A DNA stretch of 64,000 nt from NCBI GenBank assembly GCA_009779935.1, contig WRAX01000008.1, forward strand, positions 1 through 64,000, in the 5' to 3' direction. Below the pieces are notes generated by a model. That model saw nothing but the letters and a program-made list of their open reading frames with translations. It made no database searches and was not told where the DNA came from. The position numbers and the translations under genes were made by a program. Numbering within the stretch: position 1 is the first letter of the stretch; each line of letters opens with the position of its first letter. Below are positions 41,465 to 61,921 of the stretch, one piece after another. This DNA comes from Defluviitaleaceae bacterium (GTDB lineage Bacteria > Bacillota > Clostridia > Lachnospirales > WRAX01).

Positions 41465-42616
41465 CTATCCCATTTTGCGATAATCCTTCTTAAACCGGGT
41501 TAAAATTTTATGCAAAATATCTTGATAATCTTTGGTGCGCCCTTGGGCTTTGCGTATGCGTGCCTGCTCCAATAAAACTGCGGGGTTTTCTGGTGCCATG
41601 GCAATAGCACGGGAAATTGCCCAGTGCGCCTTTACCAAATCATAATCCTGCCGGTGGTATGCGGCAAGCAATGTCCATAAATCCGCCTTATTTTTCTCTG
41701 TCACCACGGCCTTTTCCAATGCTTTTATTGCCCCCGGCAAGTTACCCGCCTGTGCGTGATATGCCGCTTGTTTTTTCAAAAACTCTAACCCCTGCTGGTT
41801 TTCGGGTATTTGTGCTAAATTGCCCAATGCCTTATCAAATTGGCGCACCCGCATAAAACAGTCGCTAATACGGTAAATATAGGCATGTGCAGGGTCTTGT
41901 GCAAGGGCGGCTTGGTATGCCTTCATAGCCCCAAAATAATTGCGCTGGTGAAATTGTATTTCCCCTTGAAAATACAGCATTTCGGGGTGGTTGCGGTCCT
42001 CCGCTTGTAAAATAAGTTCGTTAGCCCCATCAAAGTCGCCTGCCAAAATGGTAGCTTCGATAAGGTTAAGGCGCAATTGCTGGGATTTGGGGTCCGCAGA
42101 CAATGCCTTAGCAAAATACTGGGTTGATGTGGTCACATCACCTGCCTGCAAAAGCGCAATGCCCGCATTATTCCACAAAGGCACATTTTCCTGGTGTTTT
42201 AGGGCTTTGGCATAAAAACCGTAAGCACGCTCTCCGTCACCCGCATCTAACCAAAAATCGCCCTGTTCTTTATATTTCTCCCAAATATGCCGCTTTTCCC
42301 ATGCTGTCAGTTCCTTTTGCAGCCCGGCAAGGGCATCTTGGGGCAGATAATCCGTGGTGGATAAAAATGACAAAAAAGCCATGGTGGCATTTTCCATCAC
42401 AGCCAAATCCCGCATTTTGACAGCAATATGATGCAATCCAAGCCCTTCTACCCATTGCACAAAAGGGGTTGCCAAAAAATCCTCCATAGACTGTCGCCAG
42501 TAGTGCAAACAGTGGTACAAAGCCTCTTCCAGCGAATAAACTTTTATGCCTGTCATATTAAATTCATAGGGATTGCGGTTCTCCTCTTGCGAAACACAAA
42601 GATACAAATCAGCCAT
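41465..42616 (-). CDS. TPR-repeat protein, possibly leaderless
   Basis: 383 residues from ATG 42616. The N-terminal ~75 residues (DLYLCVSQEENRNPYEFNMTGIKVYSLEEAL) form a conserved domain that I recall from Clostridial TPR proteins, some near Hsp70-type genes. From about residue 120 there are several TPR units (NVPLWNNAGIALLQAGDV; MAPENPAVLLEQARIRKAQG). Likely a protein-protein scaffold in the cytoplasm. The promoter's -10 ends six bases before ATG, so transcription should begin at the start codon itself. A link to the Hsp70 island at 46-64 kb is speculative. Confidence 0.75.
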   Translation of the reverse strand: MADLYLCVSQEENRNPYEFNMTGIKVYSLEEALYHCLHYWRQSMEDFLATPFVQWVEGLGLHHIAVKMRDLAVMENATMAFLSFLSTTDYLPQDALAGLQKELTAWEKRHIWEKYKEQGDFWLDAGDGERAYGFYAKALKHQENVPLWNNAGIALLQAGDVTTSTQYFAKALSADPKSQQLRLNLIEATILAGDFDGANELILQAEDRNHPEMLYFQGEIQFHQRNYFGAMKAYQAALAQDPAHAYIYRISDCFMRVRQFDKALGNLAQIPENQQGLEFLKKQAAYHAQAGNLPGAIKALEKAVVTEKNKADLWTLLAAYHRQDYDLVKAHWAISRAIAMAPENPAVLLEQARIRKAQGRTKDYQDILHKILTRFKKDYRKMG

Positions 42617-42622
42617 AACCCT

Positions 42623-42651
42623 ATTATACCACGCCACAGCGCACATCGCAA
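42623..42651 (-). promoter_or_regulatory. Promoter of the TPR-deoD operon
   Basis: TTGCGA, 17 bases, TATAAT on the minus strand. The predicted +1 falls on the A of ATG 42616. Confidence 0.8.
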
Positions 42652-44297: not shown

Positions 44298-44339
44298 ACT
44301 ACCTTACCCCCTGTTCCATCAAAAATCCTAATGGGTTTT

Positions 44340-44392
44340 ATTATACACATAAATAATCCCTATTTGCAAGTATAAATTTTACATGCTATAAT
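44340..44392. promoter_or_regulatory. Divergent promoters sharing one palindromic -35 box
   Basis: TTGCAA at 44364-44369 is its own reverse complement. To the right it is followed by 17 bases and TATAAT (44387-44392); to the left, on the minus strand, by 18 bases and TATAAT (44345-44340). The two promoters serve yedE and the desulfurase gene. Confidence 0.7.
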
Positions 44393-44500
44393 AGACCTGT
44401 CCACTAACCTCATTTGTCATCTTTCCGACTTATTTTTCACCCGGTATGCGTGGAAAGGTCTAATTTTAATATAAAACTTGGATAGGATGTGAATTGCATT

Positions 44501-45571: not shown

Positions 45572-45572
45572 T

Positions 45573-45782
45573 ATGACAATTTTGGATGCACGGGGCATTT
45601 CCTGCCCGGAACCTATGGTGATGCTGAAACAAGCCCTAAACAACCAAAGGGAGCTAACCTTGATGCTGGACAGCAAAAATGCCCTTGCCAACTGCGAGGA
45701 GTATGCCAAGAAGCAAAACTGTACAGTAACAATCAAAACCGAGGGTGATGAGTATGAGTTGCATATCAAAGCCAATGGATAA
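45573..45782 (+). CDS. yedF: SirA/YedF sulfurtransferase-like protein
   Basis: 69 residues from ATG 45573; the track's extra N-terminus belongs to yedE's reading area. LDARGISCPEPMVMLKQAL contains the CPxP motif whose Cys carries sulfur or selenium. The last three codons overlap the DUF3343 start. Confidence 0.93.
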   Translation: MTILDARGISCPEPMVMLKQALNNQRELTLMLDSKNALANCEEYAKKQNCTVTIKTEGDEYELHIKANG

Positions 45783-46002
45783 TTACATAGCCACATTTTT
45801 TAGCCATTTTGATGCCCTAATGTTTTGTGAGCACTTGAAAGAACAGGGCGTGGCAGCCAAAATGATGCCCGTGCCAAGAAAGGTCAGCTCTTCTTGCGGC
45901 ACATGCGTATCCTTTACAACAGAAACAGAAATCAATTTCGACCAGCACGAAGTTGATGCGGTTTTTGTGGAAACTTTTGGTGAGTTTAGGCAAATAGCAT
46001 AA
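45775..46002 (+). CDS. DUF3343 protein
   Basis: 75 residues from ATG 45775, overlapping yedF by eight bases. YIATFFSHFDALMFCEHLK is the family opening; SSSCGTCVSF carries a CxxC pair that may hand over selenium. DUF3343 proteins occur next to YedF in selenium-using Clostridia. Confidence 0.88.
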   Translation: MDNYIATFFSHFDALMFCEHLKEQGVAAKMMPVPRKVSSSCGTCVSFTTETEINFDQHEVDAVFVETFGEFRQIA

Positions 46003-46074: not shown

Positions 46075-48150
46075 TTACAGCCGCACAAGCTCTGCAATGC
46101 TGGCGGCAATGTTATCAAGTATATCATGGAATTTGTCTGATAAGTCATAAAATTTACCATAGGGCTTGGTTACAGGGTCATAGGCCTCGATGGATTCCCT
46201 GTCCTTACGAGCCACAACATATGTCACCACATTTTGTGCCGCAAGCATGTCACAAATATCCTGCACACTTTTTCCCGAATGGGTTGGTACATGGGGCGGC
46301 GCATCGGTAATCAGTATAAAAATGCTTTGTGTGCCGGCCTCCCGACCGCCGGTGTTTAACAGCTCCACCGCAGTTTCCAGCGAATCCAAAGCGGATTCGG
46401 GTATGTCCCCGCCATAGGTACGCGGAATATTTTTAACCTGTTTTTGGAACTTAACCACATCGCTGGTAAAGTTGTAAACGCTCATTTTCTCTTTCTCATT
46501 CAAATCCCCAAAGCCGATAAGGCCCAGCTTAAAGCTTGCCCCCTTGCTGGCAAGGATTTGGGAAAACTCTATGGCACGGTCTTTAACCCCATTAATATAT
46601 GTGTCCATACTGCCTGTTGTATCAATGCAGAAAACCACATTAACATTGCCGCCGCCCGCACCCGTTTCCCGGCTGGTTGGCGGGGCAGTAAACTTGGTGC
46701 GGTCAAATTCTGCCCGTTTTTCGTTGCCTGTGGCAATGTCTTTTACATACACTTCAAAAAGGTTGTTTTCGTCAATGGCGTAGGTTATCTCAATTTGGGT
46801 AGCACCTGTAAGCCCTGTTAAAACAACGCTTCCCATGTATTTCTTATCATCCTCATACCCCGCTTCCCATTGGTACACATCCACATTAACCGTGGGTGCG
46901 CCCGTTGCGGCAAAATTGGCATCAGAAATTTTAGCGGGTATGGCTGTGCCCATGGGGATAATAGGTATAAGCCCCTTTTCCTTGGTGGCAACATTAATTA
47001 CCGCCTCTGTACCAAAAATTTGGCGGGTTATTTGCCCAACCTTAACATTACTGCTGGGCAGGTGTATTAAATAGTTGTAAATTGCCGCACCCATGGCAAC
47101 AGATTTGGCAGGGTCGGTTGCCCTGTACGGCTCTTTTAGAAAGCCTGCCACCATGCGGCGCACCATGGGGATAAGGGTGCTGCCGCCCACAAGTATTACT
47201 TTGGAAATCTCATCCGCATGGCAATTTGCCCGCTTTAACGCCTCTTCAATAATATCCCGGCTACGGTCCACATATTTGCGGATAATTGCTTCAAACTCCT
47301 CCCGGCTAATTTCCAGGGACAAGTTTTGCGGCACGCTATCATGGATAACCAGTGGATTTATGCGTATCTGTGCCTTATTTGTGCCTGATAGCTTCTTTTT
47401 AACGCTTTCCGCTTCAAATTTTAGCTTTTGCAGCACGCGCTTGCGCTCGGCATTGTCCAGCCCATCCAAATCAAGGCTGTTTTGTTGCTTAAACTTTTCC
47501 TTCATCCATCGGATAAGCTCCGAATCAAAATCGTCGCCACCAAGGGACATGTCCCCCACATTTGACAATTCCTGGAAAATTTCTTCCCCATTTTCATCCT
47601 TTCCCACACGTAGCACGCAAGCATCAAATGTACCGCCGCCCATGTCATAAACCAACAGGGTTTGGGCATATCCCTGGCGAAAACCGTATTCGATAGCGGC
47701 CGCAAGGGGTTCGCTAAGCAAAAAAACATTCTTAAAGCCAGCCAAAAGCCCCGCTTGGCGGGTGGCAAAAATTTGCCTGTCATTAAAATAGGCGGGGTGG
47801 GTTATAACCACCTCGCTAAACATTTCGCCTGCCTGCTCCTCGGCGGCAAGTTTTAGCTTGCGCAAAATATCCCCACTTATCTCCTCAGGGGTTTTTTCAA
47901 TTTCACCAATCATCACACGCTCGTCGCTGCCCATCATCCGTTTAACGGACATTACGGTGGCTTCCGGGTAAATTATTGCCCCGCTTTTCGCCTCCGCCCC
48001 AACAACGGTGCCTTCTTCCATATAACTAACTACCGACGGCAAAATTTCATCCGCCCCGTCAATCTTCACAACCTCCAACACATCGCCGCTGTCCTTGTAG
48101 ATGATGGCAACGCTGTTGGTTGTTCCTAAATCTATTCCTAAATAGCTCAT
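46075..48150 (-). CDS. Hsp70-von Willebrand A fusion protein
   Basis: 691 residues from ATG 48150; the track's 33 upstream codons come from the REP/ribosome-binding region. Residues ~1-375 are an intact Hsp70 ATPase: GIDLGTTNSVAI, VYDMGGGTFDACVL, LVGGSTLIPMV. Residues ~385-490 read as the substrate-binding beta domain. The helical lid is absent; instead a vWA domain starts near 503 with a complete MIDAS: DTTGSM (510), TYGGD (~579) and ITDAPP (~616). The protein could bind clients or partners through metal-dependent vWA contacts. Last gene of the long minus-strand run. Not the housekeeping DnaK. Confidence 0.92.
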   Translation of the reverse strand: MSYLGIDLGTTNSVAIIYKDSGDVLEVVKIDGADEILPSVVSYMEEGTVVGAEAKSGAIIYPEATVMSVKRMMGSDERVMIGEIEKTPEEISGDILRKLKLAAEEQAGEMFSEVVITHPAYFNDRQIFATRQAGLLAGFKNVFLLSEPLAAAIEYGFRQGYAQTLLVYDMGGGTFDACVLRVGKDENGEEIFQELSNVGDMSLGGDDFDSELIRWMKEKFKQQNSLDLDGLDNAERKRVLQKLKFEAESVKKKLSGTNKAQIRINPLVIHDSVPQNLSLEISREEFEAIIRKYVDRSRDIIEEALKRANCHADEISKVILVGGSTLIPMVRRMVAGFLKEPYRATDPAKSVAMGAAIYNYLIHLPSSNVKVGQITRQIFGTEAVINVATKEKGLIPIIPMGTAIPAKISDANFAATGAPTVNVDVYQWEAGYEDDKKYMGSVVLTGLTGATQIEITYAIDENNLFEVYVKDIATGNEKRAEFDRTKFTAPPTSRETGAGGGNVNVVFCIDTTGSMDTYINGVKDRAIEFSQILASKGASFKLGLIGFGDLNEKEKMSVYNFTSDVVKFQKQVKNIPRTYGGDIPESALDSLETAVELLNTGGREAGTQSIFILITDAPPHVPTHSGKSVQDICDMLAAQNVVTYVVARKDRESIEAYDPVTKPYGKFYDLSDKFHDILDNIAASIAELVRL

Positions 48151-48180
48151 ATTTTTTTCCTCCTTATTTTCACGTTTATT

Positions 48181-48206
48181 TAGGCGGGGGCAAGCCCCCA
48201 CCCTAC
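48181..48206. repeat. REP-like palindrome, short form
   Basis: TAGGCGGGGGC AA GCCCCCACCCTA between the serpin and Hsp70-vWA genes; the serpin's stop TAG is its outer triplet. Confidence 0.8.
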
Positions 48207-49537
48207 GGTTGGTTAACCACGCCTGTGAAGAGTATTTGGTTGCCGCCATCGATGGTGTTTTTGTGCAGTATGAAGGCGAAGGGACGGTTGCATATCATTT
48301 CAAAGGTTGTTTGGGCTGGTGGCGGCGCACTTTCGGCAACGGCTATCATTAGGGTTACGGCGGCGGCGGTTGCGCCCTCTTCATCCAGCTCTATCAATGC
48401 TGTTTGCATTGCATCACTTAGCCACACACGGGGTGGGCCAACTGCCAGCAAACCATTTTCCCCTGATAGGGGTGCGGCAAACTCATCAAACAGTGGTATG
48501 CCCATGTTGGTTAACACATATGGTAAATTGTTGTGGTTGTTTTCTATGCTAAACCGGGGCAATACCAGCCTACCTTGGGCCAGTTGCTTGTTTTCCCGGG
48601 CTAACATATGCTCAAAATATTCCAAGGTCATGGATGCCAATAGGCCTGTGGCATCCCCATTTTTTGGCAGCATTATGGTTATGCCGCCGCCTGTTTCAAA
48701 GTTTAATGTTAAAGCCTGTGTCACGTCATCCTCAAAGTATAACACAGGGTCATGCTCTTGCCAAGCCATTTCCATTAGATAGGCTTGATTGATTAGGTGC
48801 ATACCGTAAAAGTTACCCCTTTGGGTTAAAGCAGGGTCAAATTTGCGCCACCAGCTGTCAGAAAAATATATGGCATTGGCGATGACGGCGGCGGTTCGCT
48901 CATCAAAATCCTTCGGTGATACCATTTGGTATATCAGCCCATAAGTGTTATCATAAGCCCAGCGGTTTATGGCATATGCTGCATGGTAATGCAGAAAGTC
49001 CACATTCATAATACCACCTTGGTAATAGTCCGCAAAAATTTGGGCAAAGGCTTGGTTTATGGTAACACGCTGGCTGGCGAACATGCCATTAGCAATGTGC
49101 AGGGGGTTTGGCCAATCGGGGTTATGGCGGCGTGCAGCCTGATTTGTTAGGTCGAACAACATGCGGGCGGCGGCTTGGTTTACCGCATCTGCTTCGCTTC
49201 CCTTGGCCCCAATGGCTTCCAGCAGGGCGGGTCTATGGGTTTCGTTTGTAACATTGGCAAGTGCCGCCAAAGGCATCCAAACAGAGAAGGGAGAGGCTAT
49301 AAAGTTTTCGTCACCCATATCTGCAAGCAGTGCGGCGGACAGGCGAAAGGCAAAGTCATTAGCACCCCTTGCCACATCCTGATGGATGGGTTGCCCCCAG
49401 TTGGTTGCCCCCAAGTTTGGCGGAGGGGCAGCTACTGGCACTACTGTGGATGCCCCTTGGTATTCTTGTTCCAAATTGCCGCAAGCTGTAAAAAACAAGC
49501 AAATTGCAAATAATGTTCCAATTAACCTTTGCTTCAT
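48203..49537 (-). CDS. Serpin lipoprotein
   Basis: 444 residues with lipoprotein signal LFAICLFFTACG. The serpin fold is covered fully: NDFAFRLSAALLAD, NFIASPFSVWMPLAALAN, AVIANAIYFSDSWW, and near the end the hinge ELDEEGATAAAVT, a reactive loop (LMIAVAESAPPPAQ) and RPFAFILHKNT. The hinge alanines fit an inhibitory serpin; the hydrophobic loop suggests an elastase- or subtilisin-like target. Anchored outside the cell, it would protect against host or competitor proteases. Confidence 0.93.
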   Translation of the reverse strand: MKQRLIGTLFAICLFFTACGNLEQEYQGASTVVPVAAPPPNLGATNWGQPIHQDVARGANDFAFRLSAALLADMGDENFIASPFSVWMPLAALANVTNETHRPALLEAIGAKGSEADAVNQAAARMLFDLTNQAARRHNPDWPNPLHIANGMFASQRVTINQAFAQIFADYYQGGIMNVDFLHYHAAYAINRWAYDNTYGLIYQMVSPKDFDERTAAVIANAIYFSDSWWRKFDPALTQRGNFYGMHLINQAYLMEMAWQEHDPVLYFEDDVTQALTLNFETGGGITIMLPKNGDATGLLASMTLEYFEHMLARENKQLAQGRLVLPRFSIENNHNNLPYVLTNMGIPLFDEFAAPLSGENGLLAVGPPRVWLSDAMQTALIELDEEGATAAAVTLMIAVAESAPPPAQTTFEMICNRPFAFILHKNTIDGGNQILFTGVVNQP

Positions 49538-49558
49538 TGGTTTTCCTCCTTCACCACT

Positions 49559-50677
49559 CTACGGAATAAGCAGTTCAAAGCGCAAAGTGCCCCTAAACAG
49601 CTCCCCATATCCGTTGCGGTATAGGGGTGCGCCAAAGTCTATATAAGCATATCTTCCATCGTGGATTATTTGATACATGCCCACGCCATATTGGGGTAAT
49701 TTGTCGATATACCCTAAAAGTTGCCAGCTATCGCCTTGGTTGGTGCTGTAAAAGATGGATGCAGGCCGGTAATAACCTTGGTATGACAGGAAAATGGCAT
49801 AAACTACCCCGTGGGCATAAATCATATCATAAGCGGGGCCGTAAAATTTTGGTTCTATATTCAAAGATACGTTAAATTCCCCCGTTTGTCTGTTATGGTG
49901 GGCAATGCCCATCCATGGGCCGCCATCCAGCCCCCAAAGTATATGGCTTTCAAAAGCAATGGCAGATGTGGGTAAAAAGCCGTAAATCACAGTTTTCCAA
50001 CTATCACCCAAATCTTGTGATCGGATGATGCGGGCGTTTTGCCCATCCCCTATGGCTTGGTAAACAACACCATCGGGGGCGATTATTAACTTATGGTTAT
50101 GATGGTCTATTTGTCGGCCGGGGTCAAAAACAACTTCCCAATTTTTACCAAAATCTGTGGAATGGTAGATGCGTCGAGCATTATCACCATAGCCTTTATA
50201 GCCGTATTCGGAAACGAACATGGTGCCGTTTTGGCTTGCTATATTCCACCAAATCACCGCTCCGGACTGGACATTAAGTACCTTTTCCCAACTTTCGCCA
50301 CCATCTTCTGATCTAAACAGTTGGTTTGTTCCAATTTCCGCCCAACGGTCTTCTGCAACGGAAACAAAGATGTTTCGTGCATCATCCACATGCACAGCCT
50401 GTATGGGCATGGCAAAGGCATAAACGCTTTGCCAGTCTTCCCCGTGGTTGTTGGAATTTATTAGGTTGCCCGTGCGAAATTCCGCCGCCCAAAGATAATC
50501 CTCACAAGCTGCCATGGGTATCAACCCTGCAATAAAAGCGTAATCCACAACAAAATCCACAAAGTTTTCCGCCGGGCGGGCATCTACGGTTACAGGCGTG
50601 GTTTGCTGACTGTTATTGCCGCAAGCTGCCAAAAACAGCCCAATCATCAGCAATACACCTACACACAAACGTTTCAT
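49559..50677 (-). CDS. BNR/Asp-box beta-propeller lipoprotein
   Basis: 372 residues with lipobox LAAC (GVLLMIGLFLAACG). At least five Asp-box turns (SEDGGESW, STDFGKNW, SQDLGDSW, STNQGDSW, NNHGEDW) indicate a sialidase-type propeller. The Arg triad and other catalytic residues of sialidases are not apparent, so it is more likely a binding or scaffold protein. ATGA overlap with the upstream acetyltransferase couples the two; the serpin follows by 21 bases. Confidence 0.85.
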   Translation of the reverse strand: MKRLCVGVLLMIGLFLAACGNNSQQTTPVTVDARPAENFVDFVVDYAFIAGLIPMAACEDYLWAAEFRTGNLINSNNHGEDWQSVYAFAMPIQAVHVDDARNIFVSVAEDRWAEIGTNQLFRSEDGGESWEKVLNVQSGAVIWWNIASQNGTMFVSEYGYKGYGDNARRIYHSTDFGKNWEVVFDPGRQIDHHNHKLIIAPDGVVYQAIGDGQNARIIRSQDLGDSWKTVIYGFLPTSAIAFESHILWGLDGGPWMGIAHHNRQTGEFNVSLNIEPKFYGPAYDMIYAHGVVYAIFLSYQGYYRPASIFYSTNQGDSWQLLGYIDKLPQYGVGMYQIIHDGRYAYIDFGAPLYRNGYGELFRGTLRFELLIP

Positions 50678-51201
50678 GCGTTATATTCCTCTGCTAAAAT
50701 GGCATACACGGCTTCGTCTACCCATTCTTTATCCACCCTTGCCCAAAACTTTTTAATATGCAGGGCTTCCCGCCGCATTCCGTTGCGCTCCATAATACGG
50801 TAACTACCGTAATTTACAGCAGCGCAGGGGGCGGTTATGCGGCGTAAATTAAGCTCCTTAAAGCCGTATCTAATCAGTTTGGCGCAAATTTCTGTGCCAA
50901 ACCCTTGCTTGTGGTGGTTTTTGTGCAAAACCCAGCCCAGCTCCCCCGTATCACCTGCGCTATCAGGGTAAATGCCGCAACTGCCGATAACTGCGCCACT
51001 TTCTTTTGATACAACAGCAAAATCCATACCTTTGCGCACGGTTTTAAGGTAGTCCCTTGTCTGCTCCATTGTATTGGGCCCCCAAGCCATCCAGCGCACA
51101 TTTTCCGGGCAGGACCCCCAAGAGTAAAAGGCATCCGCATCATCCAATGTTGCAAGGCGCAAAATTAGCCTTTCTGTTTCCAGTTTCTCACAAAAATTCA
51201 T
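50674..51201 (-). CDS. RimJ/RimL-type GNAT acetyltransferase
   Basis: 175 residues from ATG 51201. LETERLILRLATLDDADAFYSW and GELGWVLHKNHHKQGFGTEICAKLIRYGF are the signature regions of the RimJ/RimL group, which acetylates protein N-termini or small molecules. Starts in the TAATATG just after the preceding gene's stop, so co-translated with it. Confidence 0.9.
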   Translation of the reverse strand: MNFCEKLETERLILRLATLDDADAFYSWGSCPENVRWMAWGPNTMEQTRDYLKTVRKGMDFAVVSKESGAVIGSCGIYPDSAGDTGELGWVLHKNHHKQGFGTEICAKLIRYGFKELNLRRITAPCAAVNYGSYRIMERNGMRREALHIKKFWARVDKEWVDEAVYAILAEEYNA

Positions 51202-51202
51202 A

Positions 51203-51781
51203 TTATCCCTCCATCCCCGCCGCCAAAACATCGGGGTGCATTTTATAAAATTCTTCCTTGGTAACGGAAAAGGTCAAATCGTCATAACGCTTACCGCCAA
51301 CCCGCCGTATGCCCCGTATGCGGCCAATTTCTTCCATGCCAATCTTTTGTGCAAGTCCCATCATGGGCAAATTGCCCGACCAGGTTTGGCAATAAATCTC
51401 ATCCGCATAACTGTTTGCAAAATGGTAGTGTATCCATAAAATCAGCGCATTTGCAGCATGCCCCTTACCCCTTGCATCCGCCGGCGGTATGCCGATGCCC
51501 ACGGCCAGCAGGTGGGGCATTGTGTCAATAAAATAACGGTTTACGCCGCCGATATGCCGCCCATTCTCATCATCAATTTTTAAGGCACTGTACACCTTCG
51601 GGGGGTTGGTTTGCAATCTTTCCAAATACATACGCTGTTGCGCCATATGCACATCCACGGGTATGTCATCCTCCCAGGGGGCATCCCAGTTAAGCCACTC
51701 CGTCTCCACCGAATGCCATCGCTCTTCATCCGCTAAATCCGATTGGCGCATAGGGCGCAAGGTTATGTTTTTATAGGTCAT
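51203..51781 (-). CDS. GNAT acetyltransferase
   Basis: 192 residues. TLRPMRQSDLADEERWHS opens the fold; GIGIPPADARGKGHAANALILW is the acetyl-CoA loop. Its ATG overlaps the last codon of the decayed S41 gene (TAATG), showing that it was once third or fourth in a working operon behind the S41 peptidases. Substrate unknown. Confidence 0.85.
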   Translation of the reverse strand: MTYKNITLRPMRQSDLADEERWHSVETEWLNWDAPWEDDIPVDVHMAQQRMYLERLQTNPPKVYSALKIDDENGRHIGGVNRYFIDTMPHLLAVGIGIPPADARGKGHAANALILWIHYHFANSYADEIYCQTWSGNLPMMGLAQKIGMEEIGRIRGIRRVGGKRYDDLTFSVTKEEFYKMHPDVLAAGMEG

Positions 51782-52237
51782 TAAAAGTCCCCTCCCTCAA
51801 TCAACACCAGCACCGTTGCAAGCCTTGCAGTTAAAAAATATCAGTCTGGGTGGCAAATTCGTAGCCGTTGCGGCCTATTTTGTTCGTTAAGTTATTTGTG
51901 TGGCGGTTTCTGTCTCTGAAAAATTATGCTCGTCCACAATAATCCATAGTTTGCCATTAATACCAATTCCAATTCGAAACATGGAAAAGGATATTTTGAA
52001 AATCGCAGGTTTCAGTGCGTTTTCAAAATGTGCTTTTCCATGATTGAGAATGGAATTGGTATAAAGAGCCAGCAGCAAACTCGGGACGGGGTTTTACAGG
52101 GATGGCAAAGTTTCCATGCACGGTTGCAACCCATAGGGTTGGAGGAAGGAGTGGAAGAAATTAGCATCAAGCATAAACAAGTGTCCAAAACTATTAAGAG
52201 GAAAGTCGTTTTCTAATATATAAAATATAATCTCCAT
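51781..52237 (-). pseudogene. Decayed third S41 peptidase gene, interrupted by a family A MITE
   Basis: Not visible in the ORF track. Upstream of the repeat the minus strand reads IIFYILENDFPLNSFGHLFML and, in another frame, VKPRPEFAAGSL, matching the neighbours' LFHILENNFPLL, FGHFFLLD and DNPASREFYGS. Downstream it reads KLWIIVDEHNFSETE, IGRNGYEFATQTDIF and, frameshifted, LATVLVLIEGGDF, matching KIWLLVDGRNFSAAD, LGRNGYEFVTQPDI and LATVLALIEEGDF. A large internal deletion, frameshifts and the MITE disable it. Confidence 0.85.
51960..52062. mobile_element. Family A MITE, copy 6, inside the S41 pseudogene
   Basis: Same orientation as copy 1. S41-like sequence on both sides shows that the element sits inside a former gene. 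Confidence 0.88.
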
Positions 52238-52239
52238 AA

Positions 52240-53430
52240 TCAGTAGCCTCCCTCTTCGATAAGTGCCAGCACTGTTGTTAGCGCACTCATGTTCTCACGG
52301 TTAAAAATATCCGGTTGGGTTACGAATTCGTAGCCATTGCGCCCAAGATGGTCCGTGCTGTACACCCCCTGAAAACGCCCTGCAATGCCTGTGTTTGGCA
52401 GGGCAAACACAATGGGTTGCCAACCAATGCCTGCCCCACCTGTGGGCTCGCCTACAATGGTGGCAAAGCCCGTTTGCCGGGTTACAACCGCCGCAAAGTC
52501 GGCCGCGGAAAAGTTGCGGCCATCCACCAACAGCCATATTTTGCCATCAAATCCCACAGCATCCTCTGATGGGTATATGGTGCTTTCGGCATGGAAGTGG
52601 TAGGTAAACAGGGGTACATCATCCGGGTGCAGATAGGGCAAACCCGCCAGCACCTCCGCCGCCACCGGGGCAAAGCCTGTTTGCTCCCCATGGAACAACC
52701 CAATATGCTCCCCATCCATAATAAAAAAGTTGGCGGAGTATGTAGCGGGCGCATCAATCAAAAACTGCATTAGCACAATGGGAAAATAACCGGAGCTACC
52801 CCCGCCGTTGCCCCTAATATCAATTATCAAGTGGCTGTAACCTGCAACACTTTGCAAGAACGGGAAAACAATCTCCCCGTCATGCTCAATATTGCCATGA
52901 TTAAAGGAATTGATGGTAATAAGGGCAATACGCCCCTCCTCAATACTTTCGGTGCGCACATTGCCCTGCCGCACCACATCAAATCCGCCACTATCACCAA
53001 TCCAAGCCGGCGCACTGCCATAAAACTCCCGTGATGCGGGATTGTCCAGCACATCGCCCCAGGGCGTGTCCGGCCATAGATGCATATAATACCAATCCAC
53101 ATCAAAAAGGGATAAGTGCCCAAACCCCCTAAAATGCTGGAAAAAATGCCTTTCCAGATTAGCGTAAAACATTTGGTCTGTCCAGCGTCTGTTATAAGTC
53201 ATTTGTCGCATATTCTCCATAAGCTCCCCCACATCAATGCCCAATGCCCGTTCTGCACTATTAAGCAGGGGGCAATTGCTTTCAAGAATGTGGAATAGAT
53301 AGTCTAAATCCTCTAAAAATCGGGCTTGTGGGTGGTGCTGGGGTTCATAATATTCCGCCTGCCCGTCACTGCTGCACGCCGCCAAAACCAGTCCAAGCAA
53401 TAACATTAGCCCAATATACATACGTTTCAT
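52240..53430 (-). CDS. S41-family peptidase lipoprotein, copy 2
   Basis: 396 residues from ATG 53430, with lipobox LAAC (MLLLGLVLAACSSD). HLIIDIRGNGGGSSGYFP is the S41 strand-loop and VDGRNFSAADFAA contains the candidate catalytic Ser, followed by VGEPTGGAGIGWQP. No PDZ domain is visible, unlike CtpA, so it resembles the tricorn-core-like S41 lipoproteins. Tandem paralog of the next gene, 33 bases downstream of it. Confidence 0.88.
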   Translation of the reverse strand: MKRMYIGLMLLLGLVLAACSSDGQAEYYEPQHHPQARFLEDLDYLFHILESNCPLLNSAERALGIDVGELMENMRQMTYNRRWTDQMFYANLERHFFQHFRGFGHLSLFDVDWYYMHLWPDTPWGDVLDNPASREFYGSAPAWIGDSGGFDVVRQGNVRTESIEEGRIALITINSFNHGNIEHDGEIVFPFLQSVAGYSHLIIDIRGNGGGSSGYFPIVLMQFLIDAPATYSANFFIMDGEHIGLFHGEQTGFAPVAAEVLAGLPYLHPDDVPLFTYHFHAESTIYPSEDAVGFDGKIWLLVDGRNFSAADFAAVVTRQTGFATIVGEPTGGAGIGWQPIVFALPNTGIAGRFQGVYSTDHLGRNGYEFVTQPDIFNRENMSALTTVLALIEEGGY

Positions 53431-53463
53431 TGGATTATACCCCCACCTAACAATATGCACAAT

Positions 53464-54684
53464 CTAAAAATCGCCTTCTTCGATAAGTGCCAGCACAGTC
53501 GCCAGCGCATCCATACCTTGGCGGTTTAAGATATCTGGCTGGGTCACAAATTCATAACCATTACGGCCCAAACTGTCTGTACTATACACGCCTTGGAAGC
53601 GGCCTGCAATGCCTGTGTTTGGCAAAACGAACACTATGGGGTCAACACCAATGCCCGCACCGCCCGTTGGCTCTCCCACAATAGTAGCAAAGCCTGTTTG
53701 GCGGGCAATGGTCGCAGCATAATCTGCTGCAGAAAAGTTGCGGCCATCCACCAACAGCCATATTTTGCCATTAAAGCCCACGGCATAGTCCGAAGGATGT
53801 ATAGTGGATTCAATTGTGGCATAATATCTCAAAAATCCCGCATCATCGGGATGCAAATAAGGTAACTCGGCCACAAATCCATAAGAAATTGGGTTAAAAC
53901 TAATGTCATTCCAAGGAAGGGGTTTGGCGTTGTAAAACCGCCGCACATGGTCACCATCCATGGTGAAGAAGTGATAGTGATATGTCAATGGTTGGTCAAT
54001 CAAATACTGCATAAAGTTTTGGGGAAAGTAAGACGAACTGCCGCCCCCATTGCCCCTTATGTCAATTATCAAATGTTCATAATCTGCCACACTTTCCAAA
54101 AAGGGCAGTATAATTTCCCTGTCAACCGTGATATTGTCACGCATAAAGGAATTAATCGCAATGCGGGCAATGCGCCCTTCTTCCACACTTTCGGCGTGCA
54201 CATTTTCTTGTGCAACAAATTCCCCTTGTTGCCCAAAATCGGCTTCCATCATGCCAAAAATATTACGGGAAGCAGGGTTGTCCAGCACATCCGTCCATGG
54301 GCTATCCGGCAAAACATGTAGGATAAGGTGATAAAACCAATCATCCAAAAGGAAAAAGTGTCCAAAACCCCCAAAATGGTTTACGAAGTGGCTGTGTAGG
54401 TTTTGCTGGAACTGGCGGTTATTCCAGCGTCCATTATACGTGCGTTGGTGCATATCCGCCTTTAATTCATCCACATCAATACCCAAGTTGCGCTGTGCGG
54501 CATTAAGTAGGGGGAAGTTGTTTTCCAGGATGTGGAATAAATAGTCCAAATCCTCTAAAAATTGGGCTTGGGGATGCACCTCGTATTGCACTTCTGCCTC
54601 GTAAGGCAATGGCAGTTCTTCCTCGCCACAAGCCGCCAAAAATAGCCCTAATAAGCATATTATTCCGAAATACCAACGCTTCAT
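53464..54684 (-). CDS. S41-family peptidase lipoprotein, copy 1
   Basis: 406 residues from ATG 54684, lipobox LAAC (ICLLGLFLAACGEE). HLIIDIRGNGGGSSSYFP and VDGRNFSAADYAATIARQTGFATIVGEPTGG as in the paralog. Start codon overlaps the end of the Mrr-type nuclease gene (ATGA-type, four bases), so this lipoprotein is translated together with the Hsp70-nuclease pair. Confidence 0.88.
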   Translation of the reverse strand: MKRWYFGIICLLGLFLAACGEEELPLPYEAEVQYEVHPQAQFLEDLDYLFHILENNFPLLNAAQRNLGIDVDELKADMHQRTYNGRWNNRQFQQNLHSHFVNHFGGFGHFFLLDDWFYHLILHVLPDSPWTDVLDNPASRNIFGMMEADFGQQGEFVAQENVHAESVEEGRIARIAINSFMRDNITVDREIILPFLESVADYEHLIIDIRGNGGGSSSYFPQNFMQYLIDQPLTYHYHFFTMDGDHVRRFYNAKPLPWNDISFNPISYGFVAELPYLHPDDAGFLRYYATIESTIHPSDYAVGFNGKIWLLVDGRNFSAADYAATIARQTGFATIVGEPTGGAGIGVDPIVFVLPNTGIAGRFQGVYSTDSLGRNGYEFVTQPDILNRQGMDALATVLALIEEGDF

Positions 54685-55181
54685 AATCCACCCCCACCTC
54701 TTATCGCTTTCTCCAACCAATTCCTGTCCCATAAAAGTATTTCCATGCGCCCTGCCGCTTCTTTTGCGCTTTGGGTAAAGTGTTGGTTGGTTAGCACTGC
54801 GCCCACATCCGCCTCATAAAAAGCCTTGCCCGCAAAAACCTCCTGCACGGCTCTGTTGCCCACATTGGATGCCTGCCGCTTGCACTGTATGGCATAGGTA
54901 TCGCCGCCCTTTTGCGCCAAAATATCCACGCCTTGGTCGCCGCTGCCCTTTGTAACCTCCACTTTACCAAAACCCGCCCTGCGCAACATTTCGGCGCAAA
55001 ACCACTCAAATTCATGCCCGTCCATCCTATCAATGCGCTTGTATGCCTTTTTAAGCCGCCTACGTTTAAGCTTTACGCAAACAACAATAAGCAACACAAT
55101 AAGCATGGCAAAAATGGCGGCTGTAAGCTCCCATTCGCTGACAAGTAAGTGCAAAAATGAATGCAACCTTTCAAAGCCCAT
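54681..55181 (-). CDS. Membrane-anchored Mrr-type nuclease
   Basis: 166 residues. One membrane segment (LTAAIFAMLIVLLIVVCVKL) followed by basic RRRLKKAYKR, then an Mrr_cat PD-(D/E)XK domain: FEWFCAEMLRRAGF, GSGDQGVDILA (Asp) and YAIQCKRQ (QxK). The anchor keeps the nuclease at the inner face of the membrane. Its ATG overlaps the Hsp70 stop (TAATG), an arrangement that suggests linked function. Confidence 0.9.
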   Translation of the reverse strand: MGFERLHSFLHLLVSEWELTAAIFAMLIVLLIVVCVKLKRRRLKKAYKRIDRMDGHEFEWFCAEMLRRAGFGKVEVTKGSGDQGVDILAQKGGDTYAIQCKRQASNVGNRAVQEVFAGKAFYEADVGAVLTNQHFTQSAKEAAGRMEILLWDRNWLEKAIRGGGGL

Positions 55182-56821
55182 TATTTGCCCACAACACGCT
55201 TGTTAAAACGGGACGGGTCAAAGCTTTCGTTATATCCGGACGGTTCATATCCATCACCAAAGCCCATGTCCTCCACGGCACCTTTTACAAGCCCGCCCTC
55301 TTCCTCCACCAAAAGTGTAACTTTTAGGCGGGTTTTGCCGCTGGGTCTTTGGGGCAGGCCAACAATGGCAACCTCGCCAATCAGCTTGCAATCATCAATG
55401 GTATCGTTTTTGTCCATGCGCTCCATAATTTTCAGGTCAAGCCCTGTCATATCCTCCGGCAAATCCCCGGACAGGGTAAAAGCATGACTTTTCTTAGCCA
55501 GCGCATAGGGTGTACCACGGCGTATCATAGGGAAAAATGACCGTTTTGTGCCATTGTGTATTTCCAGCCCAATATCGTGGGGTACGGTTACTTCAAATTC
55601 CACTTCCGGCGTTGCATCTTCGGCTTCCATATCAGCACTATGCAAAAGCCCCATTTTCATGGCGGCATAATACGTCGCCCCCAGCGAAATATCAAGGGCG
55701 GGCCGCTCGCTTACATAAACCTTATTTTCATCATTAAAAATTTCGATAAACATATCCCGTATCCAGGGCATTTGGCTGCTGCCGCCTTCCAACAGCACCC
55801 TATCCACCTGATCCGGGTATACCGCCCCTGTATAAGCTTCCCGTAGGCATTTTTGTACCAGCTTACGGGTTTTATCAATAAAGTCACTGCATAGCTCCTC
55901 AAACTGCTCCCTTGTTAAAAGCTCCACAAAAGGCGGTATACAAAAGGTGAAAGGTATACGGAAGGATTTAACCCCGCTTAGCCGCTCCTTGGCCTCCCTT
56001 GCCCTTAGCACAAGCTCTGCGCCATTTTCCGGGGCAATATCCGCCGGCTTTATGCCATTTTTTTCCTCGATAAGCCGCAGGCATTTGGCCAGCAAAATGT
56101 CGTCAATATTATCGCCGCCATGTTGCGCCTCGCCCCCCTCCGAAATCACTTGCAGGCGTATTTTGGCATCATTTTTTTCCACCACATGAAACAGGGTAAT
56201 ATCCAGCGTGCCGCCGCCAAAGTCAAAAACAAGTATTTTTTCATCCTGTGCCAGCTCCCTACGGAAATTGTAGGCAAGTGCGGCGGCCTTTGGCTCTTCC
56301 ATCAGGCAAATAAGCTTGTCCCCAAGCCCTGCAATTTCCACCGCCCGCATGGTGGCTTTTTTAGCCGAATCGTCAAAATCATAAGGCACAGAAACCACAA
56401 GTCCCGCAATCTCCGCCTTGGGATTTAGGCTATGGCAATAATCCACCAGCTCTGTTAAAATCTTAGCAGAAATCTCCTCGGGAAGCAGTGCCTGCCCGCC
56501 CAGCTCCACACGCTCGTCTGTCCCCATTTTGCGCTTAATGCTGCGTATTGTGGTTTCGGGGTAAATTTTAATGCTGCGCCAAGCTTCCTCACCCACAACC
56601 CATTCACCTTCGCCACCATCTTCGGGGCGATACTGCACAACAGAAGGCAGTGGTATTTTACCAAAACCATTACTGGTGTCAATGGGTTCCGGCCGTTTGC
56701 TGCCCCCGTCCCAAAAACTTATAACGGAATTGGTGGTGCCTAAATCTATGCCTAAAATATACCAATCCTCTGGCAAATTGCCCTTGCCGGCTATTTCTTC
56801 CCGATATTTTTCCCAGTTCAT
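55181..56821 (-). CDS. Lidless Hsp70 (DnaK-like) protein
   Basis: 546 residues from ATG 56821 after AAGGAGG. After a ~20-residue leader (MNWEKYREEI) comes a complete ATPase domain: LGIDLGTTNSVISF, VSVPYDFDDSAKKAT, EEPKAAALAYNF, LVFDFGGGTLDITLF and LLEGGSSQMPWI. A beta domain of ~120 residues follows, with no helical lid. The tail EDMGFGDGYEPSGYNESF is shared with the degenerate paralog. Likely an active ATPase that binds partners rather than unfolded chains in general. Confidence 0.93.
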   Translation of the reverse strand: MNWEKYREEIAGKGNLPEDWYILGIDLGTTNSVISFWDGGSKRPEPIDTSNGFGKIPLPSVVQYRPEDGGEGEWVVGEEAWRSIKIYPETTIRSIKRKMGTDERVELGGQALLPEEISAKILTELVDYCHSLNPKAEIAGLVVSVPYDFDDSAKKATMRAVEIAGLGDKLICLMEEPKAAALAYNFRRELAQDEKILVFDFGGGTLDITLFHVVEKNDAKIRLQVISEGGEAQHGGDNIDDILLAKCLRLIEEKNGIKPADIAPENGAELVLRAREAKERLSGVKSFRIPFTFCIPPFVELLTREQFEELCSDFIDKTRKLVQKCLREAYTGAVYPDQVDRVLLEGGSSQMPWIRDMFIEIFNDENKVYVSERPALDISLGATYYAAMKMGLLHSADMEAEDATPEVEFEVTVPHDIGLEIHNGTKRSFFPMIRRGTPYALAKKSHAFTLSGDLPEDMTGLDLKIMERMDKNDTIDDCKLIGEVAIVGLPQRPSGKTRLKVTLLVEEEGGLVKGAVEDMGFGDGYEPSGYNESFDPSRFNKRVVGK

Positions 56822-57459: not shown

Positions 57460-58992
57460 TTACCTCGCCACATCTGCATCAAAGGTATAATTTTCTACAT
57501 ACCCCGTAGCGGGAAAAATTTCCCCAAAACCAAGGTCTTTAACCCGCACGGCAAAGGTTTCGGCGGTTTTGGCTTCCAAATCAAGGGCAATGCGGGTTGT
57601 GCCTGCGGGGCGTTTTGGCAGGCCTTTTAATGCCGCCGTGCCAAGGGGTCGGGTTTTGCCCTTTTCGTCCCGCAAAAGCAATTCCACTTCCGCATCTTCG
57701 CCACGGGCGATAAGGTGGGCGGTTTTGGGCTTTTGCCACAGCCAGCTGCCCCGCTCCATTAGGGTGTGGAAGTTGCTCTTGCCCTGCTGCACAATGTTAA
57801 TGCCCACATCAAAGGGTAATTTATTGCCATCTTCTATGATAATGTTTGGTAGTTTTATTAGCGATAACTGGTTGGCGGCATATAGGGTTGCCCCCCCGGC
57901 CAATATACCCTTTGGGTTTTTATGGAAATGGGTGGCGGGGAATATCTCACCAACAACACGCCTTGCCCAGGGCATTTCAAATCCGCCGCCCGTGCAAATC
58001 ACATCAATATGCGCCCCATCCGTGCCAGTGGTTAGTTTTTTAACAAATTCGGCAAGGCGTTTTTCCCATGGCTTGGTCATATCCTTAATTTGCGCCTGGG
58101 TAACCGTTTTTGCAAAGGGTGGGTGTACAAAGTTATAATAAAGCTTGGTATCCCTTCCCCCGTCTTGGTTTAGCAGCATATCACGGTAGCTGTGGGCAAA
58201 GGTAAAAATTTGCTCCCGCTCCCGCTTGGTCATTTTATCCGGTTGCACGCCCTGCTCTTTGCAATAATAGATGGCAAGCAGGTTGTAAATGGCTTCATCA
58301 ATATCAGCACAGCCCATCTCCTGGTTAAAGTCCGAGGCAAGGCAAGTTATTCCCGCAAAATCCGCACCAATTTCGTATAATCCGCCACGCATACCCCTGC
58401 TGCCAAAATCCAGCCACAGGATGTTGCCATGGGGTTTACCAATTCCATTTGCTGCACAATAGTACAGCACGGCTTGCCGCTCCTCAATCAGCCCGATAAG
58501 GGAGCTTGCATAGCCCGCCCGCCCAAATGCGGCGGTTAGGGCATCCCTTGCATCACTTGCAATAAAGTCCGGCACAACAGCAGTTATACCTGCAACCGTA
58601 GCCTTGGGGTTAATATTGCGGCAATTTCCAATAAGTTCCCGCAAATAAATGCTTACAATTTCTATAACCGACTTGCCCCCATCACCAATATCAAGGTAGG
58701 CGGCTTCCCCAAGCCTGCCCGCAAAATTTGTAAGCAGGGCATCCGAGCCATTGGCGTTTAATATGGCATATTCGCCAAAAATCCACTCCCTGCCTGCGGT
58801 GATGTGCTGCAAAGCCGTTGGCGGGCAGGGCTTGCCGTAACCCCCCGAAATGTCCAAAATCTCCGGGGCGCCCCGCAATGGGTCAAAATAAGAAATGGCA
58901 GATGTGGCATCGCCCAAATCCACACCCAGCACAAAAAAATCCTCATCCATTTTTCCGTTTATAAAATGTTCCCGGTGTTTTTTCCAGTCCAT
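57460..58992 (-). CDS. Degenerate Hsp70-like protein
   Basis: 510 residues from ATG 58992 after AGGAGGTG. It opens MDWKKHREHF, like the lidless Hsp70 (MNWEKYREEI). The fold is recognisable (VLGVDLGDATSAISYF, GITAVVPDFIASDARDAL, ICTGGGFEMPWARRVVG) but the ATPase is damaged: DLGTTNS is DLGDATS and DLGGGTFD is DFGSRGMRG. The tail KDLGFGEIFPATGYVENY matches its paralog's end. Likely a non-hydrolysing partner or regulator. A hairpin AAGCATTA/TAATGCTT lies directly at its stop. Confidence 0.88.
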   Translation of the reverse strand: MDWKKHREHFINGKMDEDFFVLGVDLGDATSAISYFDPLRGAPEILDISGGYGKPCPPTALQHITAGREWIFGEYAILNANGSDALLTNFAGRLGEAAYLDIGDGGKSVIEIVSIYLRELIGNCRNINPKATVAGITAVVPDFIASDARDALTAAFGRAGYASSLIGLIEERQAVLYYCAANGIGKPHGNILWLDFGSRGMRGGLYEIGADFAGITCLASDFNQEMGCADIDEAIYNLLAIYYCKEQGVQPDKMTKREREQIFTFAHSYRDMLLNQDGGRDTKLYYNFVHPPFAKTVTQAQIKDMTKPWEKRLAEFVKKLTTGTDGAHIDVICTGGGFEMPWARRVVGEIFPATHFHKNPKGILAGGATLYAANQLSLIKLPNIIIEDGNKLPFDVGINIVQQGKSNFHTLMERGSWLWQKPKTAHLIARGEDAEVELLLRDEKGKTRPLGTAALKGLPKRPAGTTRIALDLEAKTAETFAVRVKDLGFGEIFPATGYVENYTFDADVAR

Positions 58993-59201
58993 ACCACACC
59001 TCCTATCCTTATAACCTACGTTCAATAATGGGTTGTGCAAATTTTCGAGCCTGATTTTTTACCAATCAAAGAAGGTTAGTCCGCCATGCCCTAAGTCACA
59101 CAAAGATTTGTCTGACGCAGAACGGCGGAAAATCAGCCGAAAAGATATGCAACAGCTTATTGAACATAAGCTCTTAATGTTTGCGGGCGCAAATCCCCGT
59201 T

Positions 59202-60028: not shown

Positions 60029-61882
60029 CTATCTTGCAGCTATTACATTGGCGCGGGTTATAATCCGCTCCCCTTGCCTGTATCCGCTATTCATGGTTTT
60101 TATAATTTCGCCTTTTTTGAAGCCTTCTTGCACCTCTGCCATTAGCACCTCATGCTCCTTGGCATTAAAGGTTTCGTGGGCCTTTGGCGCAATTTTTTCA
60201 ATGCCATGGCGGATAAGTATTTGCTCAAGGTTTTTATGTTGTTTGTCAATTTCCACCACAAATTCCAAAATTTGCACATCACATGCTTCCCGCAGGCGGG
60301 ATACGGAATAGTGCATAATCTCCTCGAAAGTGGACAGCTCGAAAAAAAGGTTGTCCCGCTTAAAGGTTAGTACCTTTTTGTCCAGCGGCTCCTCCCGTTT
60401 TGCCCAAGCTTTGCGGGCTTCTTCTTGCTGGCTTGTGCAAAATTCATCCAAAACCTCTTTAACAAATTTTGCGCCAAAAGCCCCTTCCAGCAGGCGGTTT
60501 GCCACAAATTCTTCACCACACCCTTCCCCATAGGCCTGGGGCACTTCCTCGGGAAAGCCTTCAATGATGGCTGATATTTCTTCGCCTAACTGCTCCGCCC
60601 CGTCTTTAATAGCATCAATTTTAATGCTCACAGTTTCCGCCACGCCTTTGATTATATCCTTCTCGTCCTGTGCCAAAAAGTGCTCCTTTCCATCCTCAAA
60701 AAACGTCACGATTTCGGCAAAGGCTCCGGCGCACTCCTGTGCTAATTGGTTAATTTGGAAGGCTGTTTTTTTGGCAAAATACACCCGTTGCACAGCAAGC
60801 TTTTTGTCAAAATCTCCCAAGCGGTTATTTAGGGTAGTTGCTACTGCTTCCGCAAAAGGTGTGTGCTTTTCCTTGCGTGCGGCCTTAAAATGTTCAAAAA
60901 TAACGGCCAAATCAGGGAAAATAGCAGCTTCTTCATAAATCTCCCCAAAACCCTCAAAGGTTTCTGCATCCACAGGGGTTTTGCCTAAGTTTTCCTTATT
61001 GTGGGCGGCAGTTTCTAAAAACGCACGGTTTATGCGCCCTGCAACCTGCCCTTCTTGCTGGTAACACTCCCGCAATGCACCCAGCACCTCATCTAAAAAT
61101 GCGGTTTCTTCGGGTGTTGCGCCCCCATCCCAAGCAATTTTTTCCAATGCCATGGCCTGCACCACAATAATTTGGCGCAAAATTTCAATCTCTTCCTTCA
61201 ACAGGTTGTGGTAGGTGGATACTTGCTGGCGAAGCTCCAAATTATTAAGGTTTGTAAGCTTTGTTTCCAGCCCACGGCGATAAACGCCGTAAAAAGGCTC
61301 TTCACAAAAATCTTGCAAGCCTTTTGTTATATTAAAAACATTTTTTTCCAAATCATCAAATCCAATATCGTGGCACAGTAAAACCTTGCGCATATCCAGC
61401 AAAAGCCCTGCTCTTCTTTCCCAATCCCGGTATTCCTTTACAATTTCACCCATTTGCCCGGCAACTTGGGTAGCGACCATTGCGGCAATTTCCTTTTTTT
61501 CCGCCTGAATGGGATTAATTTCCAAATCATTATCACAAAGCATTAGGCGGGACATTATAAGGTCGTAAATACCTTCCCAAATACCCTTAATTTCGAGGGT
61601 TGTGATAATTGTGCCTGATTTTAGATGGCGATCCGCCACCTGCCTGTACACCTGCATTATATTGGTATAGCAGTCAAAAATTTCCACATCAAAAGCGGAC
61701 AGGGACAGCTCCCCGCCATCATCTTCGGCAATTTTCGTGCCAACGGCGGCTTTTATGCGCCGAAAAAACTCATCTTCCCTTGCCAAAACAAATCTATCCA
61801 AAAAGGCGCAAAGTCCCATCCATTTTCCAAATATTGCATTTTCACGGGCAAGCCCCGTGTTTTTGCTGTTTTTCTTTGTCAA
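60029..61882 (-). CDS. Large helical protein with C-terminal GrpE-like domain
   Basis: About 617 residues. The start is uncertain: TTG 61882 lies nine bases after AAAGGTG; the track uses TTG 61909. Residues ~1-540 are predicted almost wholly helical with no family I recognise. The last ~65 residues (ILIRHGIEKI, FNAKEHEVLM, GEIIKTMNSGYRQGERIITRANVIAAR) match the GrpE beta domain that pries ADP from Hsp70. It is therefore a candidate dedicated exchange factor for the Hsp70 proteins of this island. Confidence 0.8.
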   Translation of the reverse strand: MTKKNSKNTGLARENAIFGKWMGLCAFLDRFVLAREDEFFRRIKAAVGTKIAEDDGGELSLSAFDVEIFDCYTNIMQVYRQVADRHLKSGTIITTLEIKGIWEGIYDLIMSRLMLCDNDLEINPIQAEKKEIAAMVATQVAGQMGEIVKEYRDWERRAGLLLDMRKVLLCHDIGFDDLEKNVFNITKGLQDFCEEPFYGVYRRGLETKLTNLNNLELRQQVSTYHNLLKEEIEILRQIIVVQAMALEKIAWDGGATPEETAFLDEVLGALRECYQQEGQVAGRINRAFLETAAHNKENLGKTPVDAETFEGFGEIYEEAAIFPDLAVIFEHFKAARKEKHTPFAEAVATTLNNRLGDFDKKLAVQRVYFAKKTAFQINQLAQECAGAFAEIVTFFEDGKEHFLAQDEKDIIKGVAETVSIKIDAIKDGAEQLGEEISAIIEGFPEEVPQAYGEGCGEEFVANRLLEGAFGAKFVKEVLDEFCTSQQEEARKAWAKREEPLDKKVLTFKRDNLFFELSTFEEIMHYSVSRLREACDVQILEFVVEIDKQHKNLEQILIRHGIEKIAPKAHETFNAKEHEVLMAEVQEGFKKGEIIKTMNSGYRQGERIITRANVIAAR

Positions 61883-61921
61883 AATTTTCAACACCTTTAC
61901 GGGGCGCAAGCCCGAGAGGAT

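Follow-up and report, generated by a model that had tools for sequence, protein, structure and literature searches.

In Myxococcus xanthus, a second GrpE homologue, GrpS (MXAN_6672), shares an operon with the specialised DnaK paralogue MxDnaK2 (MXAN_6671) (PMC11019930, PMC10313047). In Nostoc, DnaK1-DnaJ3-GrpE forms a specialised Hsp70 system for type IV pili, which relies on the one general GrpE together with a J-protein cognate to it (PMC9239167), and the GAP1-N2 GTPase conflict systems of Firmicutes and Actinobacteria occur in neighbourhoods where HSP70 and GrpE are combined with TPR or FNIII proteins (PMC7159879). For canonical GrpE, known complexes show the stalk of the protein touching the linker region of Hsp70 (PMC12987570). 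In M. tuberculosis GrpE, the stalk region that includes the signature N[YF]RKR counts most for DnaK binding, which its mutation greatly reduced, and His181 belongs to a DnaK-facing patch (PMC10803776).

The window analysed here, the first 64,000 nucleotides of contig WRAX01000008.1 of a Defluviitaleaceae bacterium, encodes a long helical protein with a C-terminal GrpE domain, which we call GrpEx. With the canonical GrpEs of E. coli, Geobacillus and M. tuberculosis, GrpEx shares a homologous C-terminal domain, including the elements F[DN]..xH, G...II and GY, as well as Hsp70 gene neighbours. However, canonical GrpE is ~200 aa long and GrpEx ~610 aa, GrpEx lacks N[YF]RKR and falls in a separate clade, and its operon has no DnaJ, unlike the canonical locus, of which a grpE copy persists elsewhere. 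Like GrpS, GrpEx is a second GrpE homologue beside a specialised DnaK paralogue; compared by description, GrpS is a conserved GrpE domain for which no large helical extension is mentioned, whereas GrpEx has one, and GrpS-MxDnaK2 is a bicistron in a genome with 16 J-domain proteins, against one in the GrpEx host. The GAP1-N2 systems share the combination of HSP70, GrpE and TPR genes, but Pfam scans of the nine GrpEx operon proteins found no GTPase domain, and the operon holds three Hsp70s plus a pseudo-Hsp70 and no DnaJ fusion. The Nostoc system likewise gives a specialised Hsp70 its own job beside the housekeeping DnaK, but does so with the general GrpE and a J-protein, while the GrpEx operon has its own GrpE and no J-protein. 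A further comparison comes from three loci of the same bacterial order (L127:9642-14887, L128:6480-10048 and L129:231-4171) in which an Hsp70 of ~570 aa and a J-domain-TPR protein accompany a short divergent GrpE, the J domain at L129 being assigned from a reading of the sequence alone. Each appears to form a complete dedicated triad separate from the GrpEx operon: here too a dedicated Hsp70 is paired with a divergent GrpE of its own that lacks N[YF]RKR, but this GrpE has 171-200 aa and lies outside the GrpEx clade, and the J-domain-TPR protein is present. GrpEx and its operon stand out by the large helical N-terminus of the protein, the number of Hsp70s, the presence of a pseudo-Hsp70 and the lack of a J-protein. 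A literature search returned nothing relevant on DUF5716 or DUF5717, two families encoded in the operon, and nothing on the operon itself.

The reading frame of GrpEx stays open as far as position 61909, beyond a TTG codon at 61882; since a 70%-identical orthologue has an ATG at the equivalent position, we set the start at this TTG. The first-pass annotation of the window had claimed a GrpE pattern in the last ~65 residues of the 617-residue product and had proposed a profile search of its C-terminal end. That search confirmed the pattern, with residues 511-614 matching positions 66-162 of the 165-position Pfam GrpE profile (PF01025) at 53.3 bits and E 3.3e-14, around twice the curated cut-off of 25.8 bits. 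The beta-wing was correctly recognised, but its ~65 residues understate the similarity, because the match also covers the helices preceding the wing. The domain is laid out as the end of a long helix, short helices and the beta-wing, and carries the motifs STFEEI..YSVSRLRE, FNAKEHEVLMAE, KGEIIK..NSGY and RANVIAAR. All 24 members of the GrpEx family alignment match the GrpE profile, and hhalign of the C-terminal part against 31 canonical GrpEs of the order gave E 4e-10 at a probability of 97%. The GrpEx sequence of the window found no match when searched directly against the PDB; a profile of the 24 members retrieved GrpE 4ani at E 3e-4. Median identity to the window protein is 53% in the GrpE domain and 21% in the N-terminus, with the same direction in 40 of 40 pairs. 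AlphaFold, given alignments of five sequences, produced low-confidence models of GrpEx (mean pLDDT 59 and 52), which place a long helix, a helix and beta strands in the order expected of GrpE. When the C-terminal model is compared with PDB folds, each of the top ten places goes to GrpE or GrpEL1 (best E 0.0097, probability 0.69). A fold other than GrpE, which the earlier annotation had named as the outcome that would speak against it, was thus not what emerged, although models with a pLDDT of 52-59 make this a weak test, and the fold matches may be taken to agree with the sequence and not as independent proof. The low confidence of the models and the mostly helical make-up of a protein of no recognised family could be read as a chance or decayed resemblance in a long helical protein of unrelated role; given E 3e-14, 24 of 24 matching homologues, the hhalign E of 4e-10 and ten best folds that are all GrpE, we regard this explanation as scarcely credible and have rejected it. 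The C-terminal end of GrpEx thus qualifies as a true GrpE domain.

The remainder of the protein is different, as had been proposed at the outset: the first ~510 residues have no known-family match in Pfam, in the window protein or in the family members, and the N-terminal ~440 residues compared by profile-profile alignment with canonical GrpE score a probability of 1%, that is, no similarity. A match of the N-terminus to PriC (E 0.022) was discarded as falling under the cut-off and missing from other members. Apart from GrpE, PDB relatives of this region were limited to helical proteins that are either designed or generic and to a few other weak matches, with E from 0.0016 up. Whole-protein length varies from 166 to 645 aa among GrpEx homologues, all of which keep the GrpE domain. 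The shortest, of 166 aa (L126:2906-3406) and 279 aa (L123), occupy the same operon slot with little beyond that domain, and the dispersal of short forms over the tree suggests repeated shortening of GrpEx.

Table 1. Features of the GrpEx operon in the window (positions in the window unless stated otherwise)
Feature	Position	Strand	Remarks
Hsp70C, C-terminal 169 residues	63491..64000	minus	full 556-aa gene to contig position 65161 (= L004:3492-5162); full gene Pfam HSP70 246 bits; in relatives it usually lies just upstream of GrpEx
GrpEx, helical, 617 aa, GrpE domain at the C-terminus	60029..61882	minus	TTG start
GrpEx N-terminus (~510 residues), predicted to be helical throughout, matching no recognised family	60353..61882	minus	length varies among relatives
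GrpE domain of GrpEx, residues 511-614	60041..60352	minus	Pfam PF01025 53.3 bits; hhalign
Two small proteins, 139 and 118 aa	59202..60023	minus	inserted between GrpEx and DUF5716
DUF5716 protein, pseudo-Hsp70	57460..59040	minus	Pfam PF18980 93.8 bits; usual downstream neighbour of GrpEx
Hsp70A	55181..56821	minus	Pfam HSP70 198 bits; ATPase motifs intact
Hsp70-VWA	46075..48249	minus	Pfam HSP70 319 bits and VWA; has the Hsp70 ATPase and substrate domains
TPR protein	41465..42646	minus	Pfam TPR; orthologue of the gene after Hsp70-VWA in relatives

Across 40 GrpEx neighbourhoods from relatives, the gene order is conserved (Table 1 gives the members within the window). A predicted membrane protein (~375 aa) heads the operon and is followed by a DUF5717 pair (DUF5717_N, ~392 aa, and DUF5717/TPR, ~905 aa), Hsp70C (~559 aa), GrpEx (~610 aa), DUF5716 (~520 aa), Hsp70A (~546 aa), Hsp70-VWA (~693 aa) and a TPR protein (~390 aa), for which phmmer found matches in 22 neighbourhoods. 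Hsp70C lies before GrpEx in 31 of the 40 loci, 7 of the remaining ones being contig ends, and DUF5716 after it in 36; loci without the expected neighbour mostly reflect contig ends or unrecognised neighbours. The gaps around GrpEx are usually shorter than 50 bases. The operon extends past the end of the window, and the island is thus larger than first described. Insertions interrupt the operon within the window: two metallo-beta-lactamase-fold proteins, the two small proteins, a NUDIX-like ORF and an Mrr-type nuclease, together with several secreted-looking proteins between Hsp70A and Hsp70-VWA. Hsp70-VWA, which directly follows Hsp70A in most relatives, is here cut off from the other operon genes by insertions, while the 139- and 118-aa proteins are confined to the closest relatives and stand outside the conserved operon. 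The interrupting stretch (48203-54732) appears to hold lipoprotein-like ORFs, with candidate serpin-like, beta-propeller-like, two GNAT-like and two S41-like peptidase ORFs among them. The Mrr-type nuclease (54681-55181) has a membrane segment, adjoins Hsp70A and is not conserved in the operons of relatives. Farther along, putative cysteine desulfurase-like, YedE-like, TusA-like and small DUF3343-like ORFs stand in a row (43176-46002), recalling what may be a selenium or sulfur transfer cluster. Two other identities for the island were considered and set aside: PADLOC found no convincing defence system, just weak matches to the Hsp70s and the Mrr-type nuclease, and as for mobile-element cargo, a plasmid match is absent and the operon is stable across the order.

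GrpEx and Hsp70A nearly always occur together. Among 295 genomes of the order, 87 have both GrpEx and Hsp70A, 7 GrpEx alone, 4 Hsp70A alone and 197 neither (Fisher p 9e-61, uncorrected for shared ancestry and with many of the genomes being incomplete MAGs). About a third of the relatives thus carry this second, very large GrpE. In a set of 96 relatives, 46 have GrpEx and 44 have Hsp70A, each of these 44 with GrpEx as well; in both exceptions a contig end cuts the operon. The two genes co-occur even when unlinked (G019, G053, G082 and others of family f5), though part of the co-occurrence may come from the whole operon being lost or gained at once. That GrpEx is almost always found with the operon Hsp70s points to an undescribed dedicated Hsp70 machine beside the normal one, in which GrpEx is, in our judgement, quite probably the nucleotide-exchange factor of its own operon's Hsp70s, forming a second machine next to DnaK-DnaJ-GrpE. 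All GrpEx homologues form a single clade apart from canonical GrpE (support 97/91), and named relatives of GrpEx are encoded in MAGs titled Defluviitaleaceae and Clostridiales. Among 399 genomes sampled evenly across the phylum, GrpEx was found in the window's own genome only (E 1e-20) and DUF5716 was confined to the same order; the GrpEx system looks order-specific. Family f6 departs from the pattern: the four of its loci that were read all keep the DUF5716, DUF5717 and TPR genes, with GrpEx not found there, and in the four genomes DUF5716 is also a genome match in every case and Hsp70A was not found. This reduced operon (L119-L122) has a single fused DUF5717 of ~1200 aa, a DUF5716 of ~430 aa and the TPR protein, a trio that must have a role of its own.

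The genome of the host, a gut bacterium, (2.1 Mb, 53 contigs, 94% complete) carries canonical grpE, dnaK and dnaJ together on another contig, C1, and it is because this normal locus lies elsewhere that GrpEx counts as a second GrpE; canonical GrpE is present in essentially every genome of the relatives examined. The true Hsp70s of the genome number four, namely DnaK and the three of the GrpEx operon, two more partial matches (on C5 and C2) being short. The second grpE therefore sits in an operon with non-housekeeping Hsp70s while the canonical set is kept apart, as expected of a dedicated Hsp70-GrpE pair. Pfam finds one J-domain protein in this one 94%-complete genome, the DnaJ of the dnaK locus, and no ORF of the 40 neighbourhoods has an HPD motif near its start; with no cognate J-domain protein seen in it, the operon would make up a pair and not a complete Hsp70 triad. 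One could suppose that GrpEx, having a GrpE domain in a genome that also encodes canonical DnaK, is a second exchange factor for this DnaK or a backup of canonical GrpE. We consider this highly improbable, as canonical grpE is retained alongside it, the DnaK-binding stalk motif is gone, and GrpEx is nearly always missing where Hsp70A is missing, even though DnaK is present. The first-pass suggestion that the island's Hsp70s have a specialised exchange factor in this protein, on the other hand, gains support from the profile match, the separate canonical set, the place in the operon and the co-occurrence, all of which would fit such a role.

Under closer inspection, GrpEx departs from canonical GrpE at sites that matter for DnaK binding. 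The stalk signature N[YF]RKR occurs in 31 of 31 canonical GrpEs and in 0 of 44 GrpEx proteins, which puts GrpEx outside the canonical subfamily; it is best classed as a GrpE-superfamily homologue, not a canonical GrpE. Without the signature, its binding to Hsp70 must differ or could be lost. In the last strand, canonical R[YHP]S is replaced by [LV]RAN, so that the conserved arginine is shifted one residue later, to the position of M. tuberculosis His181 (by hand mapping from the GY motif). The Hsp70s of the operon have changed as well. None of 94 fits the canonical hydrophobic linker pattern that the genome's own DnaK fits, and the helical lid is missing from Hsp70A, Hsp70C and Hsp70-VWA, a von Willebrand A domain replacing it in the last; this Hsp70-VWA arrangement is conserved across the order. 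Since the stalk of GrpE touches the linker region, loss of the stalk motif and loss of the linker would fit together. With few exceptions, orthologues of Hsp70A, Hsp70C and Hsp70-VWA retain the phosphate and adenosine motifs, and therefore a nucleotide cycle exists for an exchange factor to serve; the Hsp70-like DUF5716 has lost all of these ATPase motifs in 37 of 37 orthologues. The absence of the stalk signature from all members, the alteration of the conserved strand (RAN versus R[YHP]S) at the DnaK-facing end and the pseudo-Hsp70 adjoining GrpEx would also suit a domain that keeps its fold and its docking to Hsp70 but not exchange, as a scaffold or assembly factor holding Hsp70C, Hsp70A or DUF5716. 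We think this, the main alternative, unlikely, given that the GrpE domain is so much better conserved than the N-terminus, that the Hsp70 ATPase motifs are intact, and that DUF5716, which persists without GrpEx in f6, is not an obligate partner.

If GrpEx is a dedicated exchange factor, its C-terminal helical bundle and beta-wing would bind the nucleotide-binding domain (NBD) of the cognate Hsp70, open the nucleotide cleft and free ADP, as GrpE does for DnaK; homology and gene linkage make cleft opening and ADP release a likely activity of the protein. Its most likely partner is Hsp70C, with Hsp70-VWA and Hsp70A as further candidates, and Hsp70C is at least as good a candidate as the two Hsp70s (at 46075 and 55181) named originally. 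The loop of NBD subdomain IIB is shortened in Hsp70A, and its length in Hsp70C and Hsp70-VWA is closer to DnaK than in Hsp70A or DUF5716. The long helical N-terminus might stand in for the canonical stalk as a variable scaffold or tether, bringing exchange to an assembly of DUF5717, TPR and membrane proteins; this role is a guess from the anatomy of GrpEx, as is, from the predicted membrane protein heading the operon, that of a membrane-linked chaperone machine. It is tempting to speculate on an undescribed, order-specific and J-protein-free machine of three lidless Hsp70s and a pseudo-Hsp70, with GrpE-family control, a helical scaffold in place of the stalk, and membrane anchoring via the DUF5717, TPR and membrane proteins, a composite picture that we hold tentatively, at slightly less than even confidence. 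Were GrpEx indeed the exchange factor of such Hsp70s, a large group of anaerobic gut bacteria would possess an additional Hsp70 machine served by an exchange factor of its own, and three protein families, DUF5716, DUF5717 and the GrpEx N-terminus, would share a common context. Because the GrpEx stalk signature and the Hsp70 linker have changed together, the operon would also serve as a natural test of which GrpE parts exchange requires, and of whether Hsp70s can cycle without a J-protein. As a minor observation, two Hsp70A matches (G018:C25:39377-40999, in L123, and G086:C117:1620-3209) contain one in-frame stop each, TGA and TAA, respectively, and may be pseudogenes, sequencing errors or cases of recoding.
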